From: a virus
Length of the DNA: 30,485 bases
Virus record (IMG/VR): IMGVR_UViG_3300035224_000007
Span: 1-30,485 of that record
Strand: one strand, 5' to 3'
Part shown: positions 4,466-30,485 of the stretch, one piece after another
How the letters are laid out: every line of letters begins with the position of its first letter
How positions within the stretch are numbered: position 1 is the first letter of the stretch
Program-made: the position numbers and the translations under genes
The notes under the pieces: generated by a model
Databases searched by the model: none
Told to the model about the DNA's origin: nothing
Seen by the model: the letters and a program-made list of their open reading frames with translations, nothing else

Positions 4466-5098
4466 TTATTTAGTTATGTTATATAATATTCTTTCTCTTT
4501 TAGTCATTTTAGATAAATCTCTTTGTGAAAGTTCTTTACCTAATGCACTAAATTTATTTGTATCTACATGTTTAGCAGCAGGTTCGTTTGATAACTCTAC
4601 TACTTGTGCAGATAGTTTTTCTTTTTCTGAAGATAATTCTTCATTTGTTGATTTAAGTTCTGCTAACTCAGATTTTAATGTTTCAATCTCAGTATTTACA
4701 TTACTCATTAGATCAACTACTACGGACTTAACTTCATCCATAAAAGCTACTGAATCAAATTCTACTGCTTCAGTTTCTTCTTCCATATCTTCTTTAGATG
4801 CTTCTTCTTCAACTACTTCTTCTGTTGCTTCCTCCTCTACTTCTTCTTCGTAGATTTCAGCTACAACACCTTCAACCTCTACAGAAAATCCTATACCATC
4901 TTCAGTTTTGTATTTTCCAACTGGTAAAAGCATTGTAGTTCCATCTTCTGTAAGAACTGATATGTCTACTGATGGTTCTAATGAGTCAGCAGTAGAAACT
5001 ATAATAGTACCATCTTCAAGTTTATTTTGATACTCTAAATTCACTTCTTCTTGCTTATCAAGACCAAGTGCTACTAATATTTGTTGTTTTAAATCCAT
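4466..5098 (-). CDS. Scaffolding/capsid assembly protein, acidic coiled coil, 210 aa
   Basis: The N-terminus is MDLKQQILVALGLDKQEE. A highly acidic low-complexity stretch follows at about residues 84-112 (many Glu, e.g. EEEVEEEATEEVVEEE), then a long coiled coil (about 130-170, LKSELAELKSTNEELSSEKEKL) and a basic C-terminus (SKMTKRERILYNITK). An acidic, extended, coiled-coil protein directly before the major capsid gene is the usual profile of a phage scaffold. The gene has its own late-type motif 16 nt upstream of the ATG. A plus-strand serine-rich frame inside it is only the complement of the Glu-rich codons. Confidence 0.75.
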   Translation of the reverse strand: MDLKQQILVALGLDKQEEVNLEYQNKLEDGTIIVSTADSLEPSVDISVLTEDGTTMLLPVGKYKTEDGIGFSVEVEGVVAEIYEEEVEEEATEEVVEEEASKEDMEEETEAVEFDSVAFMDEVKSVVVDLMSNVNTEIETLKSELAELKSTNEELSSEKEKLSAQVVELSNEPAAKHVDTNKFSALGKELSQRDLSKMTKRERILYNITK

Positions 5099-5114: not shown

Positions 5115-5144
5115 TATATAATAGAATAGTTATTGTTCTGTTTG
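5115..5144 (-). promoter_or_regulatory. Putative phage late promoter L4 (CAAAC-N15-CTATTATATA)
   Basis: CAAAC at 5144-5140, 15-nt spacer, CTATTATATA at 5124-5115, then 16 nt to the scaffold ATG at 5098. It lies just after the stop of the 122-residue gene (5149), so it would give the scaffold and capsid genes extra transcription in addition to read-through. Confidence 0.7.
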
Positions 5145-5528: not shown

Positions 5529-6395
5529 TTATAAACCAAATTCTTTAGCTAATTTATCATACTTAAATAATTCAGTTGCACTTTCTTTATAGTCTTTTAC
5601 TATTTTTACATCAATACCTAAGTCTTTAGCTTGTCGTGCTAATGATTTTCTTTGTTGTTCAATTTCTTTATATGCTTTTTCAGCAGGTACTGAAGCAGCC
5701 ATTAATTCATTTCCTAATTTTCTTATTTTTGTATTAGCTTTTTCTAAAATAATTTTTTGGTCAGTTAATATGCTTTGTAATAACTCAATTCTTTGACCAC
5801 TTAACAACTCTTTTAGTGCAGTTTTTACTTCTTCGTTTGTTGGTTGTGTTTTTGTCATTTTTTCCATTTTATTAATAAAGTAGCCCTCTATACTTAGACC
5901 TCGTAATTCCCCACCTGTTATTTTACTCCACATCTCATCATTCTCTATCTTCATCTTAACAAACCAAGTACCATCAGGTAAGTCAAAGCCATATAACTTA
6001 GACTTGTCTTGTTCGCCTTCTTTTATCCAACTCTCTATAGTCAATACACCTGATACTCTATCTTCGTGTTGATATGTAGCTTTATGATGGTTGTTATGCT
6101 TTAAATATAACTCACTAGCTTGTCTTACTGTTTCTTTTGAAAAGAAAACATAATAGTCAGAGTCAGTATTAGGATCATACCTAAATATTTGTTTGTTTGG
6201 TATTAAAGCAGGACTAACTAACATTCTTTTCTCCTCATCTATCTTAGCTAATGTCAAGTTGTTCTTTTCTTTCCCAAAAAATACAAAGTCTTGCTCTATA
6301 GCAGGACTTGTAACTAAACTGATAGCATCTATAGTCATTTCTTGACTTTCATCAGCTATTACTAACTCTACAATCTTAGTTGGTTTCTTTTCCAT
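5529..6395 (-). CDS. XkdF-like prohead protease with C-terminal helical domain, 288 aa
   Basis: Residues 1-175 look like the XkdF-like putative serine protease family: KIVELVIADESQEMTIDAIS, VTSPAIEQDFVFFG, KRMLVSPALIPNKQIFRYD, the His-rich HNNHHKATYQHEDR (about 97-110), TWFVKMKIENDEMWSKI and GELRGLSIEGYF. The last strand with its Ser is where this fold usually has its catalytic serine. The family is thought to mature capsids. Residues from about 180 on form a helical, scaffold-like tail, so protease and scaffold functions may be fused, as in other phages. A late-type motif ends only 2 nt before the ATG, suggesting a leaderless message. The catalytic residues are inferred, not proven. Confidence 0.8.
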   Translation of the reverse strand: MEKKPTKIVELVIADESQEMTIDAISLVTSPAIEQDFVFFGKEKNNLTLAKIDEEKRMLVSPALIPNKQIFRYDPNTDSDYYVFFSKETVRQASELYLKHNNHHKATYQHEDRVSGVLTIESWIKEGEQDKSKLYGFDLPDGTWFVKMKIENDEMWSKITGGELRGLSIEGYFINKMEKMTKTQPTNEEVKTALKELLSGQRIELLQSILTDQKIILEKANTKIRKLGNELMAASVPAEKAYKEIEQQRKSLARQAKDLGIDVKIVKDYKESATELFKYDKLAKEFGL

Positions 6396-6397
6396 AA

Positions 6398-6427
6398 TAT
6401 ATAATAGATTATTTTTTGATTTGTTTG
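6398..6427 (-). promoter_or_regulatory. Putative phage late promoter L3 (CAAAC-N15-CTATTATATA)
   Basis: CAAAC at 6427-6423, 15-nt spacer, CTATTATATA at 6407-6398, then TT and the protease ATG at 6395. The 15 bases from the CTATT block through ATG are identical to those at the tail chaperone gene (15184-15198). If the second block is a -10 element, transcription would begin at or next to the ATG, giving a leaderless mRNA. Confidence 0.7.
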
Positions 6428-14420: not shown

Positions 14421-15186
14421 CTTTTAACTTTTTTTGTTTCGTTTAAATCAACTTCATAAGTTAGCCAAGTTAAACATTCATATAAACTTAATTTTGTTAT
14501 TCTCTCTAAGTTTACTATACTACCTCCTGTCAAATTATACATTACTCCGAACCAAGACCACTTACTGGCAAATTTTTCATCAGTAGTGATTGTTTCACTT
14601 CCTTCATCCGTTCCATCAAATACAACGGCAAAATCGTTGATAGTTCGTTTCCTAAAGTCCAAAAAAAAACCAATGAACTATTTACATCTGCTGCTTTCAT
14701 CTTTTTAAACTTCTCTGCCCTCATCCTGACATCACTACCATTATATGCTTCAATAGAATAGTGCTTACCATTTCTTTTTACTACTGGTCTGTAAAGAACT
14801 GCCATTAACTTATCTAAGTTCTTTTCCATTCCGTTTTGTATGTAGGTTTCAATATCGGCATAAGCACCGAGAGTAATTTCAGATAGATCAGGATGAAATC
14901 CGTAATCAATTCCATCTACCTTTATTATTCTTTTTAACCTACTACTAGCTTTGTTCTGCAACTCAGCTACTTTGTTTAAGATATTAGATACATCATTTAT
15001 ACTCAACTCTTTTACAAGTTTTCTAGGTATATCAGATAACAAACTTATTGTATCTAATGCTTCTTTAGTTTTTGACTTACTTTTACTATCTATAAGTTTA
15101 GCCCATTTATCAAGTGTTACATCTTCCCAACTGTTAATTAGATTGTAAGTGTTTTTCTTACCATCTTTCTTAATGTTTACCTGCAT
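14417..15186 (-). CDS. Tail assembly chaperone, long frameshift product (GT-like), 256 aa
   Basis: If ribosomes slip -1 on the T9 run at 14661-14669, residues 1-175 of the short product are joined to an 81-residue second frame that runs to 14417. This second frame (from 14662) has no ATG near its start and contains FASKWSWFGVMYNLTGGSI and LERITKLSLYECLTWLTYEV, a pattern I recall from C-terminal domains of tail chaperone extensions. The overlap of the two frames is 121 nt. Long and short forms made in this way (gpG/gpGT of lambda) guide tape measure and tube assembly. The next gene overlaps its stop by 4 nt. The slip itself is inferred. Confidence 0.7.
14542..15186 (-). CDS. Tail assembly chaperone, short product (G-like), 214 aa
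   Basis: The zero-frame product is 214 residues, starting MQVNIKKDGKKNTYNLINSW. Its core (VDGIDYGFHPDLSEITLGAY at about residues 90-109, MAVLYRPVVKRNGKHYSIEAY at 128-148 in two pieces) is conserved, as I recall, in a Bacteroidota phage family found next to tail genes. After Phe175, where the slip occurs, the zero frame adds 39 more residues that look helical and less conserved. It is the first gene after terminase, following a terminator and a late-type motif whose second block ends 2 nt before the ATG. The chaperone role is inferred from the frameshift arrangement and gene order. Confidence 0.7.
   Translation of the reverse strand: MQVNIKKDGKKNTYNLINSWEDVTLDKWAKLIDSKSKSKTKEALDTISLLSDIPRKLVKELSINDVSNILNKVAELQNKASSRLKRIIKVDGIDYGFHPDLSEITLGAYADIETYIQNGMEKNLDKLMAVLYRPVVKRNGKHYSIEAYNGSDVRMRAEKFKKMKAADVNSSLVFFWTLGNELSTILPLYLMERMKEVKQSLLMKNLPVSGLGSE
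14662..14668 (-). other. Programmed -1 frameshift slippery heptamer (T TTT TTT)
   Basis: The minus strand reads GG, nine T (14669-14661), GG. In the zero frame the codons are GTT TTT TTT TGG (Val173 Phe174 Phe175 Trp176), so 14668-14662 is a T TTT TTT heptamer in the canonical phase for tandem -1 slippage. After the slip the next codon is TTG at 14662-14660, opening the 81-residue second frame. I did not identify a downstream stem or pseudoknot. Confidence 0.75.
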
Positions 15187-15188
15187 AA

Positions 15189-15219
15189 TATATAATAGAA
15201 TTTATTGTTATTTAGTTTA
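15189..15219 (-). promoter_or_regulatory. Putative phage late promoter L2 (variant TAAAC-N16-CTATTATATA)
   Basis: The block CTATTATATA is at 15198-15189, then TT and ATG at 15186. The upstream block is TAAAC (15219-15215) with a 16-nt spacer, one base longer and one base different from the other copies. It lies between the terminator after TerL and the tail chaperone gene, as expected for a promoter that restarts transcription for the tail block. Confidence 0.62.
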
Positions 15220-15290: not shown

Positions 15291-16499
15291 TTATTGTACA
15301 TAATATTTTCCTGCATTTGGATTGTCTAAATGATATATTACGTTATAACGGATTCCATCTATTGCGTGGTTATAACTATCTACATATAACTTACTTCCTT
15401 TGTCTGCATAAACATAATTGTTTAACTCTTTAGCTATGTTAGTAGATTTTGGAGATACTATTAGTTGATAGTCTTGCATACGAGTTACACCACTTTCAAT
15501 AGTTCCTTTCTTAACTGGTTTTATGTTTACTCCTAAGTGTCTTAAATCCTCTATCAATCTTGGCTCTGCACTATCTGCTATGATTAGTTTGTTATCTACC
15601 TTGTCTAATATTATTTTAGCTAACTCGTGAGATTTTAAACCATTACGATATAAATGTTCTTTAATATATATCTTCATTTTCTTTTTATCTATAGCAACCT
15701 CAGTTAATGAATCAGGATCAACAGAAAAACCAAAGTCCATACCACAAGATGTTTGTAAGTTATCAGGATTAAATTCTCCTATTGTCCAATTATCAAATAC
15801 TACACCCTCTGCTTTATCTAACCATCCACCAAGTATCTTATGTAAATACTTCTTAGGATTGTTTTGTTTAAGTCTATATATCCTTTCTATGAAACTATCG
15901 GATAGATTCTGCTTGTTATCTAAGTAAGTAGAATGAATGTAGCACACATTATCTTTAATACCATTAAAACCATCTATAACTCCTCTCTCCTCAAAGAATC
16001 GTTTATATATCCAATGCTCTTTAGTTGTAGGATTAAGTATTAATATAATTCTATTCTGTATGTTCTTCTCTCTTATACTAAGGTCTATAGTATCAAATAT
16101 ATTCTCATCTATTAATTCTTCAGCTTCATCAAGTACCCAACAACTTATTCCTTGTAATGATTTAAGGGATGCAGTCTGATTTCCTGAAGATGTTTTTATA
16201 CCTCTAAATAGTATATCACTATTTGTTGATGTATTGACTACCTCTGACTTATTAATACTAAATATAGAATCATATCCTAATAAGCCTATCTTTTCTAAGA
16301 ACTCTGGTATTATAGATAAGTGAGCAGATACCATAGTATATCTTGTAAACAATACTCTTATACCTTGAGCCATTGTAAGCAAAGTAAGAAACACAGTTAC
16401 TGCATAAGACTTACCTGATCCTCTCCCTCCTGTAATTATATAGTATCTACAATCAGAAGAAAATAGAACACTATACTTTTTATTCAGTTTCGGATTCAA
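15291..16499 (-). CDS. terL: Terminase large subunit, 402 aa
   Basis: The packaging motor ATPase/nuclease. Walker A is GGRGSGKS at residues 24-31. Walker B is SCWVLDEAEEL with Asp124-Glu125. The coupling region is LILNPTT (about 153-159). The nuclease domain shows MDFGFSVDPDS (Asp255), LIIADSAEP (Asp309) and DGIRY (Asp381), the usual three acidic residues of the RNase H-like nuclease of the PBSX/Terminase_3 type. At 402 residues it is complete. The ATG lies inside the end of TerS (20-nt overlap). It is followed at once by a terminator, then a new promoter motif, so packaging genes may have their own short transcript. Confidence 0.95.
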   Translation of the reverse strand: MNPKLNKKYSVLFSSDCRYYIITGGRGSGKSYAVTVFLTLLTMAQGIRVLFTRYTMVSAHLSIIPEFLEKIGLLGYDSIFSINKSEVVNTSTNSDILFRGIKTSSGNQTASLKSLQGISCWVLDEAEELIDENIFDTIDLSIREKNIQNRIILILNPTTKEHWIYKRFFEERGVIDGFNGIKDNVCYIHSTYLDNKQNLSDSFIERIYRLKQNNPKKYLHKILGGWLDKAEGVVFDNWTIGEFNPDNLQTSCGMDFGFSVDPDSLTEVAIDKKKMKIYIKEHLYRNGLKSHELAKIILDKVDNKLIIADSAEPRLIEDLRHLGVNIKPVKKGTIESGVTRMQDYQLIVSPKSTNIAKELNNYVYADKGSKLYVDSYNHAIDGIRYNVIYHLDNPNAGKYYVQ

Positions 16500-16749
16500 T
16501 GAAGTTTATTATAGGTATGTTTAGTGTTTCACTATTACTTGTTACATCAACTCTTTGTTGAGGTTTACCATAAAAGTACTCAAAGAATAATTTAACTGCC
16601 CATTGTTCTTTGTTCTTTAAACCTACCTCTAAAGACTTTAAAGCATCTGCGTTCATTGGAGTTAAGTTCTCTATTAACTTTTGTTCTTCTGCTTTGCCTT
16701 TGCGACCAGCACCTTCTCTTTTACCTCCGTTGTTTATTCGTTTATCCAT
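16480..16749 (-). CDS. terS: Terminase small subunit, 89 aa
   Basis: The ATG at 16749 gives MDKRINNGGKREGAGRKGKA, the usual N-terminus of small terminase subunits in Bacteroidota phages (GG+R.GAGRKG). It is followed by helices LIENLTPMNADALKSLEVGL and NKEQWAVKLFFEYFYGKPQQ, and an acidic end. It binds the packaging site and recruits TerL. A longer frame could begin at TTG 16773, but ATG 16749 keeps a 30-nt leader after the late-type motif at 16780-16809 and is preferred. The end overlaps the TerL start by 20 nt. Confidence 0.8.
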   Translation of the reverse strand: MDKRINNGGKREGAGRKGKAEEQKLIENLTPMNADALKSLEVGLKNKEQWAVKLFFEYFYGKPQQRVDVTSNSETLNIPIINFIESETE

Positions 16750-16779
16750 AATTGAAATAGATTGATTATTCAATCTTTA

Positions 16780-16809
16780 TATATAATAGAAATTAGTTGT
16801 ATTCGTTTG
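16780..16809 (-). promoter_or_regulatory. Putative phage late promoter L1 (CAAAC-N15-CTATTATATA)
   Basis: CAAAC at 16809-16805, 15-nt spacer, CTATTATATA at 16789-16780. The copy overlaps the last codons and stop of the NinB-like gene, so the motif is conserved here even within coding sequence. It lies 30 nt upstream of the TerS ATG (16749), the longest leader of the five. The leader holds a short inverted repeat (GATTGA / TCAATC). Confidence 0.68.
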
Positions 16810-18149: not shown

Positions 18150-18162
18150 AGTTTATAGTTTA

Positions 18163-18231
18163 AAAATAAAGGAGAGCATTTAAAACATTTAATATATTAA
18201 AGTTGGCAGTATGCCTACCCTCCCTTATTTA
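18163..18231 (-). ncRNA. Putative structured RNA element (three-helix junction) in leader of zinc-ribbon gene
   Basis: On the minus strand the bases 18230-18217 and 18177-18164 can pair as a 14-bp closing helix. Three of the pairs are G-U, and these same positions would be A-C mismatches if the plus strand folded, so the structure favours the transcribed strand. Inside are a GGCA-TAC-TGCC hairpin (18215-18205) and a palindrome TTTAATATATTAAA (18201-18188). This occupies nearly the whole gap between the DUF3310 stop and the next ATG. It could be a cis-regulator, processing site or small RNA. No known RNA family is recognised. Confidence 0.55.
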
Positions 18232-18232
18232 G

Positions 18233-18472: not shown

Positions 18473-18874
18473 TTATGTTTTATATTTTTCTACTATTTGT
18501 CTTATTCCGTGATAGCAACTATTTAAACAAGAGCCACAATTACTCGTAGTTTTATAGTTGGCATTATATATAGTATTATATAATTCAATCATTTTCTTTT
18601 TTACTGTTACGTTCTTTGCTACTCCTGTCTTTACATCTTTCCAAATTAATAGACATTCTTCTATTAGTTCTTCAGGTATGTCATCAGGTCTTTCTACTTC
18701 TGTTGTCTTACCCCAATACTTCTGTGGACATTCCATTACTCCTATCCTGGCTTTTACTTTCATAAAACATAAGCAGACCTTACAAGTACCTGTAGGTTTA
18801 AAGTAATATACACATTCCCTACATAATGCTATGCGTTCTTGATACACCTCATCTTTGACAAAGAAATTACTCAT
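18473..18874 (-). CDS. Cysteine-cluster (zinc-binding) protein, 133 aa
   Basis: The N-terminal half has Cys18, Cys21, Cys31, Cys34, Cys36 and Cys49 (ALCRECVYYF, TCKVCLCFMKVKARI, ECPQKYW), likely binding one or two zinc ions. A second cluster lies at the C-terminus (Cys113, Cys116, Cys120; SNCGSCLNSCYHGI). I recall this arrangement in a widespread family of Bacteroidota phages, with no known function. The gene overlaps the sigma-like gene by 8 nt, so the two are probably made together. A partner of the sigma-like factor or of RNA polymerase is a possibility suggested by coupling only. Confidence 0.7.
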   Translation of the reverse strand: MSNFFVKDEVYQERIALCRECVYYFKPTGTCKVCLCFMKVKARIGVMECPQKYWGKTTEVERPDDIPEELIEECLLIWKDVKTGVAKNVTVKKKMIELYNTIYNANYKTTSNCGSCLNSCYHGIRQIVEKYKT

Positions 18875-19433
18875 CTAACAATTCTTTAAGTTGTTCTCTT
18901 ACTTTGTCTATAGTCGTGAATAAACTATTTCTGCTTATACCTGTCTTTTTCGCAAGTCCCGTTAGTGTATTACCCTCGTAATAATATAACTTAAATACAG
19001 AAGCATCATACCAGTAAACATTTTCTTCTAATGCTTGATCAATAAGTTCTAGTTTTTGCCATTGTTTATATTCTTCAGCATTAGGTATGTTGTATAGATT
19101 CTTTTCATTAGATGTTTCTCCACTTTCTGTTATGTCATAAGTTAAACTACTTGCTTGTGCATCTAAGTATGTATAGTATTTCTTATACTTATAATAGTAT
19201 GGACTTCGTGGACTTGTAAAACTTCTTCTTAATACTACTGCACCATATCTTATTAATCCTTTTTCTCCATCTTTATTGTATATGTCTTTGAGAACTGTTG
19301 GATTCATTTGCAAAAAATACATTAGACATTCTTGTACTGCTTCTTCTATTTCATTTATATCGTGAGTAAAAGCATAGGACATCTTTACAAATGTCTTTCT
19401 ACAATCTGCTACTGCCTGATATACTTTATTCAT
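18867..19433 (-). CDS. Sigma-70-like factor (putative late gene regulator), 188 aa
   Basis: The C-terminus (about residues 130-186) reads like sigma region 4: LIDQALEENVYWYDASVFKL, YYYEGNTLTGLAKKTGISRN, SLFTTIDKVREQLKELL, with a clear helix-turn-helix at about 155-180. The N-terminal part (HDINEIEEAVQECLMYFLQM) recalls region 2 of ECF-type factors, but weakly. Such proteins are known in Bacteroidota phages, mostly without proven targets. It is in the early operon behind a host-type promoter, and it is the best candidate in this genome to recognise the CAAAC/CTATTATATA motif before late genes. It overlaps both neighbours by 8 nt. Alternative: a simple HTH DNA-binding regulator. Confidence 0.75.
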   Translation of the reverse strand: MNKVYQAVADCRKTFVKMSYAFTHDINEIEEAVQECLMYFLQMNPTVLKDIYNKDGEKGLIRYGAVVLRRSFTSPRSPYYYKYKKYYTYLDAQASSLTYDITESGETSNEKNLYNIPNAEEYKQWQKLELIDQALEENVYWYDASVFKLYYYEGNTLTGLAKKTGISRNSLFTTIDKVREQLKELLDE

Positions 19434-19785
19434 TTTTATAATCTATATTGCTTAAATTAATAACACAATCTTCTAAATACTTATCAAGCAAAACCCTATA
19501 TGCTCTTAATGATTCTCTATTTCTTTTTGTTTCTAATGCAGCAAAGTAACCATTACAACATACTGAAAGGTTAATAGGTAGTATCATCAACCAATCATTC
19601 CAGTTCCCTTTATCTAAACCTTCTTCTCCATATCCGTTATGGTAGTTTATTATTAAATCTACCACTTCTACAAATGAATTATATTTTGTTTCTGATGATG
19701 ATTCTTTTACAAAAGATAACACTAACTTTAAATATTCTTCTATGTAAATTTGATGTTGTATACTTGAATAAACAGGTTTTACCAT
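19426..19785 (-). CDS. Unknown early protein, 119 aa
   Basis: I choose ATG 19785 (MVKPVYSSIQHQIYIEEYLK); a TTG two codons upstream is a weaker start. The protein is helical, with a cysteine pair CC (NLSVCCNGYFAALETKRNRE) and an acidic/aromatic stretch GYGEEGLDKGNWNDWLMILP. I do not recognise a family. It lies 21 nt after NinG and overlaps the sigma-like gene by 8 nt, so it is part of the early operon. TATATTTG stands 3 nt before the ATG but lacks an upstream TTG at the right distance. Confidence 0.65.
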   Translation of the reverse strand: MVKPVYSSIQHQIYIEEYLKLVLSFVKESSSETKYNSFVEVVDLIINYHNGYGEEGLDKGNWNDWLMILPINLSVCCNGYFAALETKRNRESLRAYRVLLDKYLEDCVINLSNIDYKNE

Positions 19786-19806
19786 TCTCAAATATAAATA
19801 AATTAA

Positions 19807-23727: not shown

Positions 23728-23744
23728 AGTAGTCAAATAAGTTA

Positions 23745-28628: not shown

Positions 28629-30206
28629 TTATATTGTTGTTAATGTTGCTAATTCAGTATCTGTTAATGCTGTTTTATATACTTGTAGTTGTTTTACTTT
28701 TCCTTCAAAGAAATATGTTGAAGCAGAATCAAAATTAACATTTGTTAAAACACCACTTGAAAAAGTTGTACCGTGTGTAACTGTTCCACGCAAAAATCCA
28801 TTTATCCAAAATGTAAAAACACCTAAAGATGTCCACATTATAGCAATTTTATTACTACTAACTATTGGTGTTGTATAATTTAATGTAGCACCTATTGAAA
28901 CATTTGAAACTTTAGACCTTGCTTTTATAATTCCTGTTTCTAATTGTATGGAAATAACATTAGCGGATGCAGCATCTCTTAATTGTATTTGACCATTCCC
29001 CCCTGATTCACTCAAAGCAGCCATCTCTACAAATAAAACCCCTTCCTCACTATTTATCAAATTACTAATACCTGTCTTTTCGTATTGGTCTTTTACTCTT
29101 GTAACTGTAAGACCACTTGTAGGTATGTAAGATGTAGCGTAAGAGCCTTGTTCTGCTTGAAATCCGTAAACTAATATATCAGCAGTATTAACAGTAGAAA
29201 CACCACCATTTAAGCATAAACCTGCCCAAGAGTTACTAAACCCATTTCTACTAAAAGTAAATCTTTTCCAATCTGCAGTAACAGTTGTTTCGTTAGTGTC
29301 TGATGTGCTATGCCATAATATTTTTTGGTCTGTACCATCAGTAGATTTCATATATACAGATAAGAACCAATCAGTTTGGGTAGAAATACTTTGTCTAATT
29401 ACAGTTCTACTTGGAGAACTTCCACCTAAATTAAATTGTATTCTTTGTGCGTTTTGCGTACCATCAGGACTTATAGCATAATTATCAGTTACAATAGGTG
29501 TTATTGCAGTTCCTGTTGTTACTTGCGACCAACCTGTTGAACCAAATGTTTCAGAATTAGTAATATCATTAGTCCTCTCAGGCTCTACTAATAATGAAGA
29601 AGCAGTACCATCATAATCTACTCTTGCAAGATTGTTTTTAGTTGATTCTTTTACTGATACGTTTGAAACACCAAAAGAACCATTATTTGTATCAGCTTGA
29701 ATACCTATTAATGTAGCTGATATTCCTGAAGTAATATATACCGTATGAGTGCCTTGTGCATAAACCACCCAAGTACCTTGAAATCTTGCACCTGCTTCAT
29801 TTACAAATCTTAACTTTGCATCAGAATTTAAAGTAAAAGTAAAAATAAAAGTTTGACCTACTTGTATATTAACTGCATTGAGATTGTTTAAGTATGGCTC
29901 TCCTACACCACCATAAGTAGCAATATTATTAGCAATAGTCCAACTTGCACCTGTAGACCAATATGTACCTGTTGTGCTTTCTGCTTGTGTTCCTGTTAAA
30001 GCAAAATCTCCATCAGTAATTAACTCACTACCCAACAACTCAACAGTTTCAATCAAGCCACTAGAATTAACCCTAGTACCTGCTGATGCTCTTGTCATTG
30101 TTATAGGCTGAGGTAAAAATCTTGTACCCGCTGTACTATAGCCTAAAAGATTATCTTCTTTTATTGCCCAATTACTATTACCTATTTGTAAACTTGGATT
30201 CGCCAT
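28629..30206 (-). CDS. LamG-like adhesion protein, paralogue, 525 aa
   Basis: The C-terminal 60% parallels the upstream wrapped gene step by step: IGSEL/LGSELITDGDF, ISNVSVKE/VSNVSVKE, EPQRTN/EPERTN, PTSYIPTSG in both, LINSEEGVLFVEM in both, and LKQLQVYDTALTD/VKQLQVYKTALTD. It therefore has a carbohydrate-binding-like module (about residues 60-170), a second jelly roll (about 200-360) and a concanavalin/LamG-like domain (about 370-525). The first 40 residues differ, so the two may attach to different sites. The ATG overlaps the preceding stop (TAATG). A role in binding host-surface glycans is inferred from the domains. Confidence 0.85.
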   Translation of the reverse strand: MANPSLQIGNSNWAIKEDNLLGYSTAGTRFLPQPITMTRASAGTRVNSSGLIETVELLGSELITDGDFALTGTQAESTTGTYWSTGASWTIANNIATYGGVGEPYLNNLNAVNIQVGQTFIFTFTLNSDAKLRFVNEAGARFQGTWVVYAQGTHTVYITSGISATLIGIQADTNNGSFGVSNVSVKESTKNNLARVDYDGTASSLLVEPERTNDITNSETFGSTGWSQVTTGTAITPIVTDNYAISPDGTQNAQRIQFNLGGSSPSRTVIRQSISTQTDWFLSVYMKSTDGTDQKILWHSTSDTNETTVTADWKRFTFSRNGFSNSWAGLCLNGGVSTVNTADILVYGFQAEQGSYATSYIPTSGLTVTRVKDQYEKTGISNLINSEEGVLFVEMAALSESGGNGQIQLRDAASANVISIQLETGIIKARSKVSNVSIGATLNYTTPIVSSNKIAIMWTSLGVFTFWINGFLRGTVTHGTTFSSGVLTNVNFDSASTYFFEGKVKQLQVYKTALTDTELATLTTI

Positions 30207-30485
30207 TATTGTATTGTATAAGTTAATGCTTCTGCCATCTCTGTATAAGATTCAAAAAAGTGAGTACCTGCTTCTCCTGTTAGTTGTATAAGTTGATTAT
30301 CTGTTAGTGCTGTATCGTAGACTTGTAGTTGTTTTAGTTGCCCTTTAAAAGCAATAGCAGTGTTACCTGCATCTAAATCTAATGAAGATAATGTTCCAGA
30401 TGAAAATGTTGCCCCACTTCCTATTTGTGATGCAACTTCCACTCCATTTACCCATAAAGCAAAATCATTAGTCTTGTATTTAAAA
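30206..30485 (-). CDS. LamG-like adhesion protein, C-terminal part of the gene that starts at 1896
   Basis: This is the continuation of the 1896-1 reading frame. Bases 30358-30206 complete it (30359-30485 duplicate 1-127). The end includes VASQIGSGATFSSGTLSSLD and LKQLQVYDTALTDNQLIQL, the last strands of the LamG-like domain, then a 30-residue tail (ESYTEMAEALTYTIQ) that replaces the end seen in the paralogue. A frame from ATG 30442 alone would be an artefact of where the circle was cut. The stop overlaps the paralogue ATG as TAATG. Confidence 0.85.
   Translation of the reverse strand, partial: FKYKTNDFALWVNGVEVASQIGSGATFSSGTLSSLDLDAGNTAIAFKGQLKQLQVYDTALTDNQLIQLTGEAGTHFFESYTEMAEALTYTIQ
30359..30485. 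repeat. Terminal direct repeat, copy 2 (circularisation overlap)
   Basis: Identical to bases 1-127. Removing one copy closes the circle at 30,358 bp and restores the open reading frame across the joint. Confidence 0.95.

Follow-up and report, generated by a model that had tools for sequence, protein, structure and literature searches.

Which factor activates packaging and virion genes in this phage, and does the short protein encoded at positions 18867 to 19433 supply it? The window, by which we mean the whole analyzed stretch of 30,485 bases, is a virus record with a 127-base terminal direct repeat (positions 1 to 127 and 30359 to 30485) and therefore represents a complete, circularly mapping genome of 30,358 bases (∼30.36 kb). 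Every assigned gene lies on the minus strand, and a 684-codon tail-like ORF spans the circular junction. A sequence-only reading of this DNA had proposed that a 188-residue protein with a sigma region 4-type helix-turn-helix (HTH) is the partner of a motif found ahead of late genes. We consider it very likely that the protein is an ECF-like sigma factor that directs host RNA polymerase to phage-only bipartite late promoters. Fold, family, motif, placement, co-occurrence, and covariation were computed in this analysis, and from these we infer host-core binding, start sites, timing, and host.

The interval from 18867 to 19433 is a genuine ORF on the minus strand that starts with ATG and encodes 188 amino acids. 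Three scans of IMG/VR recovered 332, 374, and 526 stretches matching this protein. The relatives that were retained are ∼50 to 95% identical, and most family members are 178 to 198 amino acids long. Among 54 diverse members of the family, the Pfam profiles Sigma70_r4 and Sigma70_r4_2 match 44 and 39, respectively, with a best E value of 2.8e-6, which bears out the recognition of a region 4-type HTH from the sequence. When the window protein is scanned singly, its region 4 matches fall below the Pfam cutoff, and the comparison with PHROG gives a weak match to phrog_36, “transcriptional regulator” (E = 0.007). The region 2 profile Sigma70_r2 (PF04542) is absent from the 25 families listed for the 54 members and from the P0001 matches. 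A tblastn search with the window protein found no match at an E value of ≤0.1 in 50,697 phage records. The same protein had been called the only initiation-like protein in the genome; family scans of most ORFs fit this statement and do not amount to proof of absence. In one relative (L208, record G004, 30988 bases), the sigma gene is present at both ends of the record in two differing versions, at 698 to 1252 and 29148 to 29705, which reflect either a paralogue or a chimeric assembly.

Pfam matches to region 4 only, together with the weak match to a “transcriptional regulator,” would suit a protein of another kind, a RinA/ArpU-type activator that resembles sigma region 4 and, by binding the CAAAC box, brings the host sigma holoenzyme to the late promoters. 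RinA and ArpU late activators have a region 4-like HTH without region 2, whereas the structural model of the window protein contains both. An initial AF2 model had a pLDDT of 69.5, which rose to 80.6 with the 54-member alignment. In the model based on these 54 homologues, pLDDT is ∼93 over residues 1 to 73 and ∼87 over region 4, while the linker around residues 81 to 118 is of low confidence; the pTM is 0.45 because the model does not fix the two domains relative to one another. Codons 1 to 86 (positions 19176 to 19433, minus strand) are predicted to form the complete four-helix domain of region 2, and codons 119 to 187 (positions 18873 to 19079, minus strand) form the region 4 HTH, the expected reader of the −35 element. 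The disordered linker alone joins the two domains, and there is no region 1.1, 1.2, or 3 domain.

Comparison of the model with the PDB by Foldseek returned sigma factors as nearly all of the top matches, with most of the chain length aligned. The best match was the ECF factor SigL (6dv9; E = 3.1e-4, probability of 1.00, 187 columns), and further matches included AlgU, SigE, and SigW. Whole-chain TM-scores against the PDB matches are low, about 0.3 to 0.4, a consequence of the flexible joint, which prevents both domains from being superposed at once. Among viral proteins (BFVD), the fold matches include phage proteins labeled as sigma24 homologues. When PDB sequences were searched by profile, no relevant match was returned, and it is the fold comparison alone that matched sigma factors. 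Residues 33 to 35 of region 2 (V-Q-E) are invariant or nearly so in the family, and by analogy the helix that carries them is expected to meet the clamp of RNA polymerase. Structure prediction, which the sequence-only reading had suggested as a check, thus yields both sigma domains with matches to ECF sigma factors. That reading had noticed region 4 alone; region 4 stands, and a predicted region 2 must be added to it. We call the protein ECF-like on the grounds that the modeled region 2 fold and the region 4 HTH are both present, and we stop at “like” because PF04542, the sequence profile of region 2 that serves as a criterion of ECF sigmas, does not match. Region 2 of this family has diverged too far for Pfam recognition.

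The window contains exactly five copies of the motif AAAC-N15/16-CTATTATATA, each on the minus strand and just ahead of a late gene, with the C of CTATTATATA at positions 16789, 15198, 6407, 5124, and 2844. In the direction of transcription, all five copies come after the sigma gene, as had been claimed. The first putative late promoter (16780 to 16809, CAAAC-N15-CTATTATATA, 31.9 bits) precedes a terS-like gene and terL. The second (15189 to 15219, TAAAC-N16-CTATTATATA, 35.4 bits) precedes the gene at 14542 to 15186, with the ATG 2 nt past the −10 element. The remaining three, all of the form CAAAC-N15-CTATTATATA, precede the head maturation protease gene at 5529 to 6395 (third promoter, 6398 to 6427, 28.8 bits), the gene at 4466 to 5098 (fourth, 5115 to 5144, 20.8 bits), and the gene at 2341 to 2820 (fifth, 2835 to 2864, 34.6 bits). 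The scoring matrix was derived from other phages; the five sites span 20.8 to 35.4 bits, nothing in 20 Markov-shuffled versions of the window scored above 6.0 bits, and the matrix scan found no further strong site in the window. Full sites in the fetched family loci number 348 distinct in the sense orientation versus 8 antisense, several of the latter arising from the fact that CTATTATATAATAG reads the same on both strands. An exact version of the motif occurs 128 times in sense orientation, 0 times in antisense orientation, and 0 times in Markov sequence. The spacer is 15 or 16 nt in 349 of 356 sites, and the sites fit an extended consensus of approximately TAAA(C/T)TAAA-N-TTTCTATTATATA-N-TATG.

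An ATG follows the −10 element by 2 nt at 148 of the 356 sites and by 4 nt at another 50. This proximity is what might be expected if the motif were a translation-initiation signal, or a replication or packaging signal, and not a promoter. Such a reading is at odds with a bipartite, sense-only motif with a spacer of 15 to 16 nt, with the presence of several copies per genome ahead of late genes only, and with the leaders of about 26 to 30 nt at the sites at 5124 and 16789, and we regard it as extremely unlikely. For the motif as a promoter, the position of the ATG has a different meaning. The distance from element to start site in phages 7-11 and phiEco32 is 6 to 9 nt (PMC8948821); combined with an ATG 2 to 4 nt past the −10 element, such a distance implies that many late mRNAs of the window phage would have little or no leader. 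This would be unusual in comparison with the model host Flavobacterium johnsoniae, in which most transcripts have leaders (PMC6847099).

The region around the first late promoter has other features of its own. A dyad with a third half-site (GATTGAATAATCAATC..TTTCAA, 10-bp phase) lies at positions 16752 to 16775 on the minus strand, between this promoter and the terS-like gene, and is conserved in >50 relatives; loci L001, L005, L009, L013, and L100 have the same layout with another sequence (CAGTTAACTAA..TTTAAACTAA). The arrangement resembles an operator, a packaging or TerS binding site, or a leader RNA hairpin. The listed TTG start of the terS-like ORF (16480 to 16773, minus strand) at 16773 falls within this conserved leader dyad; translation more probably begins at the ATG at 16749. 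A 208-base segment of terL (15646 to 15853) shares 84% identity with a record that bears the name Edwardsiella phage vB_EtaM_ET-ABTNL-9. The matching gene of that record is annotated “DNA methylase,” and since a Riemerella phage terL is labeled likewise, this annotation is probably wrong.

The pattern TTTG-N17/23-TANNTTTG, which is of the Bacteroidetes primary-sigma type (PMC6847099), has a single intergenic match on the gene strand of the window. This host-type promoter (TTTG-N20-TATATTTG, positions 23728 to 23697, minus strand) heads the early operon in which the sigma gene lies, 4.3 kb upstream of that gene and on the same strand, in agreement with the earlier assignment of the gene to an operon read from a host-type promoter. 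A set of relatives has a similar site 3.9 to 4.7 kb upstream of sigma. The strict pattern is found upstream of sigma in 26 of 89 loci only and so cannot serve as a general marker among distant relatives. Elsewhere in the early operon, an 83-nt intergenic gap (18150 to 18232, minus strand) holds nested inverted repeats (AAATAAGGGAG...CTCTCCTTTATTT and GGCATACTGCC), a possible terminator or structured RNA.

Given the Bacteroidetes-type early promoter, the host is probably a member of the Bacteroidetes. The nearest cultured relatives, Nonlabens phages P12024S and P12024L (Inhavirus; TerL 62% and portal 31% identical), agree with this assignment. When genome contigs were scanned, the single sigma match was a phage contig within an alphaproteobacterial MAG, which we did not accept as evidence of the host. 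One contig of the window's phage group (L082, PAPR01000004.1) is binned in a MAG labeled Pseudooceanicola (Alphaproteobacteria), and another contig of that MAG (C49, G056) is rich in the late motif; both are probably misbinned phages.

The genes that flank the sigma gene were considered as possible partners. A Cys-rich, DUF6171-like ORF (18473 to 18874, minus strand) overlaps the sigma stop by 8 nt, exactly as first described. The overlap is kept in 123 homologous pairs, and the Cys-rich ORF adjoins sigma in 178 of 206 loci, making it a usual neighbor. The suggestion that its product is a sigma cofactor is unsupported, as the zinc finger-like, Cys-containing N terminus also occurs in unrelated Synechococcus phages (cyanophages). 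The ORF directly upstream of sigma (19426 to 19791, minus strand) was present in all 199 of the 199 loci checked and had no match among cultured phages. We offer it, as a suggestion only, as a better partner candidate than the Cys protein.

The sigma gene and the late motif occur together in both directions. The strict motif is present in 30 of 32 near-complete sigma-bearing records, most of which carry three to five copies, all on one strand; when the pattern was reversed as a control, it gave zero matches in these records. The two records with sigma and no strict motif (G040 and G047) are not counterexamples: they carry concerted variants at the same late genes. In the other direction, sigma is encoded by 13 of 14 motif-bearing contigs of 25 to 33 kb, with one copy partial at the contig edge. 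The exception (G002) is an unrelated phage that has no genes in common with the window's group and contains the motif as a chance match. Two further contigs without sigma (G009 and G015) are shorter fragments that end before the sigma position. Orthologues without the motif, and the motif without an orthologue, had been named at the outset as the cases to look for; the former resolve into genomes whose late promoters carry a distinct form of the motif and the latter into a phage outside the group.

The variant promoters provide the strongest evidence. In five genomes, a variant is shared by most or all of the late promoters: two have no strict motif (G040, with ATATTATATA, and G047, with CTATAATATA or a close form), and three have a single copy of it (G018, G053, and G054, with CTATTATATT). 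In the sigma of G040, Thr73 is replaced by Gln and Arg76 by Asn. These residues belong to the stretch T-S-P-R-S (codons 73 to 77, positions 19203 to 19217, minus strand), of which residues 74 to 77 make up the loop between helices 45 to 73 and 78 to 86 in the AF2 model, in the place of the −10 specificity loop of ECF factors. In SigH, residues 72 to 79 form the specificity loop, and T76 and N77 contact a flipped −10 base (PMC6411747). On the basis of topology and this analogy, loop 73 to 77 would correspond to the ECF region 2 specificity loop and would bring residue 76 near the −10 base.

Anchored promoters were scored without using the first −10 base, and that base was then compared with residue 76. 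Where residue 76 is Arg, that base is C (206 of 208 sites, 137 loci); where it is Asn, the base is A (31 of 33 sites, 17 loci); and the one locus with His76 has A at 4 of 4 sites, which brings A to 35 of 37 sites for Asn76 and His76 together. Four cells depart from this pattern: L037 is a weak match, G054 and G057 are misphased picks, and at L339 the wrong region was picked and an A-type motif is visible on inspection. Asn76 has at least two origins on the tree, one in the clade of G040 and L342 to L349 and the other in L353, which lies amid Arg76 sequences. The complete genome of L353 (G057) has an ATATAC-form −10 element at five late promoters with the −35 element unchanged. This covariation turns the pairing of sigma and motif into something close to a genetic test. 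Layout, two-way co-occurrence, and the covariation of residue 76 all lend support to the pairing first proposed by the sequence-only reading, and the conclusion that the sigma protein and the late promoters belong together is well supported.

The covariation also weighs against the two remaining alternatives. An upstream activator of the RinA/ArpU type would not read the covarying base, which lies in the −10 element and is paired with a region 2 loop. The late −10 element also differs from the Bacteroidetes TANNTTTG element, and with a region 2 domain predicted at high confidence we judge the activator reading improbable. Bacteroidetes encode many ECF sigmas, and one of these could read the late motif while the phage protein, for example, displaces the host sigma or shuts off host transcription. 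A host factor would not explain why motif variants track the phage protein genome by genome, why N76 or H76 predicts the base change, or why gene and motif co-occur in both directions, and we hold this to be very unlikely. That a phage sigma recognizes the late promoters remains our preferred reading.

Whether residue 76 alone sets the first −10 base is a narrower question. A one-residue switch (Arg for C, Asn or His for A), giving a natural series of specificity swaps, has in our estimate about an even chance of being correct. This reading takes in a change from C to A at least twice, the CTATTATATT and CTATAATATA variants, the CGTTAATA element of the sister phages, and the rewriting of promoters together within each genome. 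We treat it as a hypothesis because Asn76 has two origins only and is accompanied by a change at residue 73. Natural variants that differ at a loop residue and, in concert, at all late promoters make an ECF-like recognition code directly testable, along with the evolution of regulator/promoter pairs.

We propose that the sigma gene would be expressed early from the host-type promoter and that its product would take the place of the host sigma on the host RNA polymerase core. The phage sigma would then steer the core to bipartite late promoters of the form AAAC(TAAA)-N-TTTCTATTATATA, with the AAAC side read by region 4 and the first −10 base by the region 2 specificity loop with Arg76. Packaging and virion genes would thereby be switched on. 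This mechanism would account for late-gene activation in a large, little-studied group of marine phages that probably infect Bacteroidetes, and sigma and motif together provide a signature for metagenome searches.

The domain plan of the window sigma is that of ECF sigmas such as SigL, SigH, SigE, and AlgU, which consist of region 2, a linker, and region 4 only. It shares with them a specificity loop between region 2 helices 3 and 4 and, at the sequence level, a rigid two-element promoter with an AAC-like −35 element. Unlike the bacterial ECF sigmas, the window sigma is phage-borne, no anti-sigma gene was found beside it, and its region 2 has diverged beyond what Pfam detects.

Nonlabens phages P12024S and P12024L have a sigma-like gene in the same place, just before terS/terL (gp33/gp35, “Sigma-70 region 2”). 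Late genes of P12024S are headed by AAAACAAA-N-TT-CGTTAATA, with the ATG 4 nt on. Like the motif of the window family, this late motif is bipartite and AT-rich and lies at the same distance from the ATG; the −10 element is CGTTAATA in P12024S/L and CTATTATATA in the window. A literature search found no published report of an Inhavirus AAAACAAA/CGTTAATA late promoter. The P12024S/L sigma is shorter (159 amino acids), and Pfam detects its region 2 and not its region 4; PF04542 scores above the cutoff in all four Inhavirus-type family members scanned. The profile link between the two sigma families is weak (hhalign probability of 17%, E = 0.0015).

The closest functional parallel is with Salmonella phage 7-11, a lytic phage that encodes a sigma-like factor with region 4 (PMC8948821, PMC4331800). 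In vitro, this factor (gp47) directs the host core to late promoters of the form GTAAtg-(16)-aCTA (PMC8948821). The late promoters in both phages are bipartite, with elements about 16 nt apart, and stand before structural genes, and by analogy the window sigma would also use the host core. A division between a host sigma for early genes and phage sigma promoters for late genes is likewise shared, in our case as read from sequence alone. Phage 7-11 differs in its enterobacterial host and its GTAAtg/aCTA promoter, and the window phage differs in having sigma and late genes on one strand and many late mRNAs that are predicted to be leaderless. In phiEco32, gp36 is also a phage-encoded sigma for middle and late transcription by the host core; it recognizes a single-element promoter, tAATGTAtA, and has no region 4 homology (PMC8948821). 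phiEco32 gp36 is activated by the regulator gp79, and a gp79-type inhibitor of host sigma is missing from phage 7-11 (PMC8948821). A tblastn search of the phage collection at an E value of ≤0.1 found no homology of the window sigma to gp47 or gp36. By analogy, the window system would work like the late sigma systems of 7-11 and phiEco32. The proposed mechanism is one already known from 7-11 and, more loosely, from phiEco32, and what is new is its probable presence in another host group with a promoter of its own.
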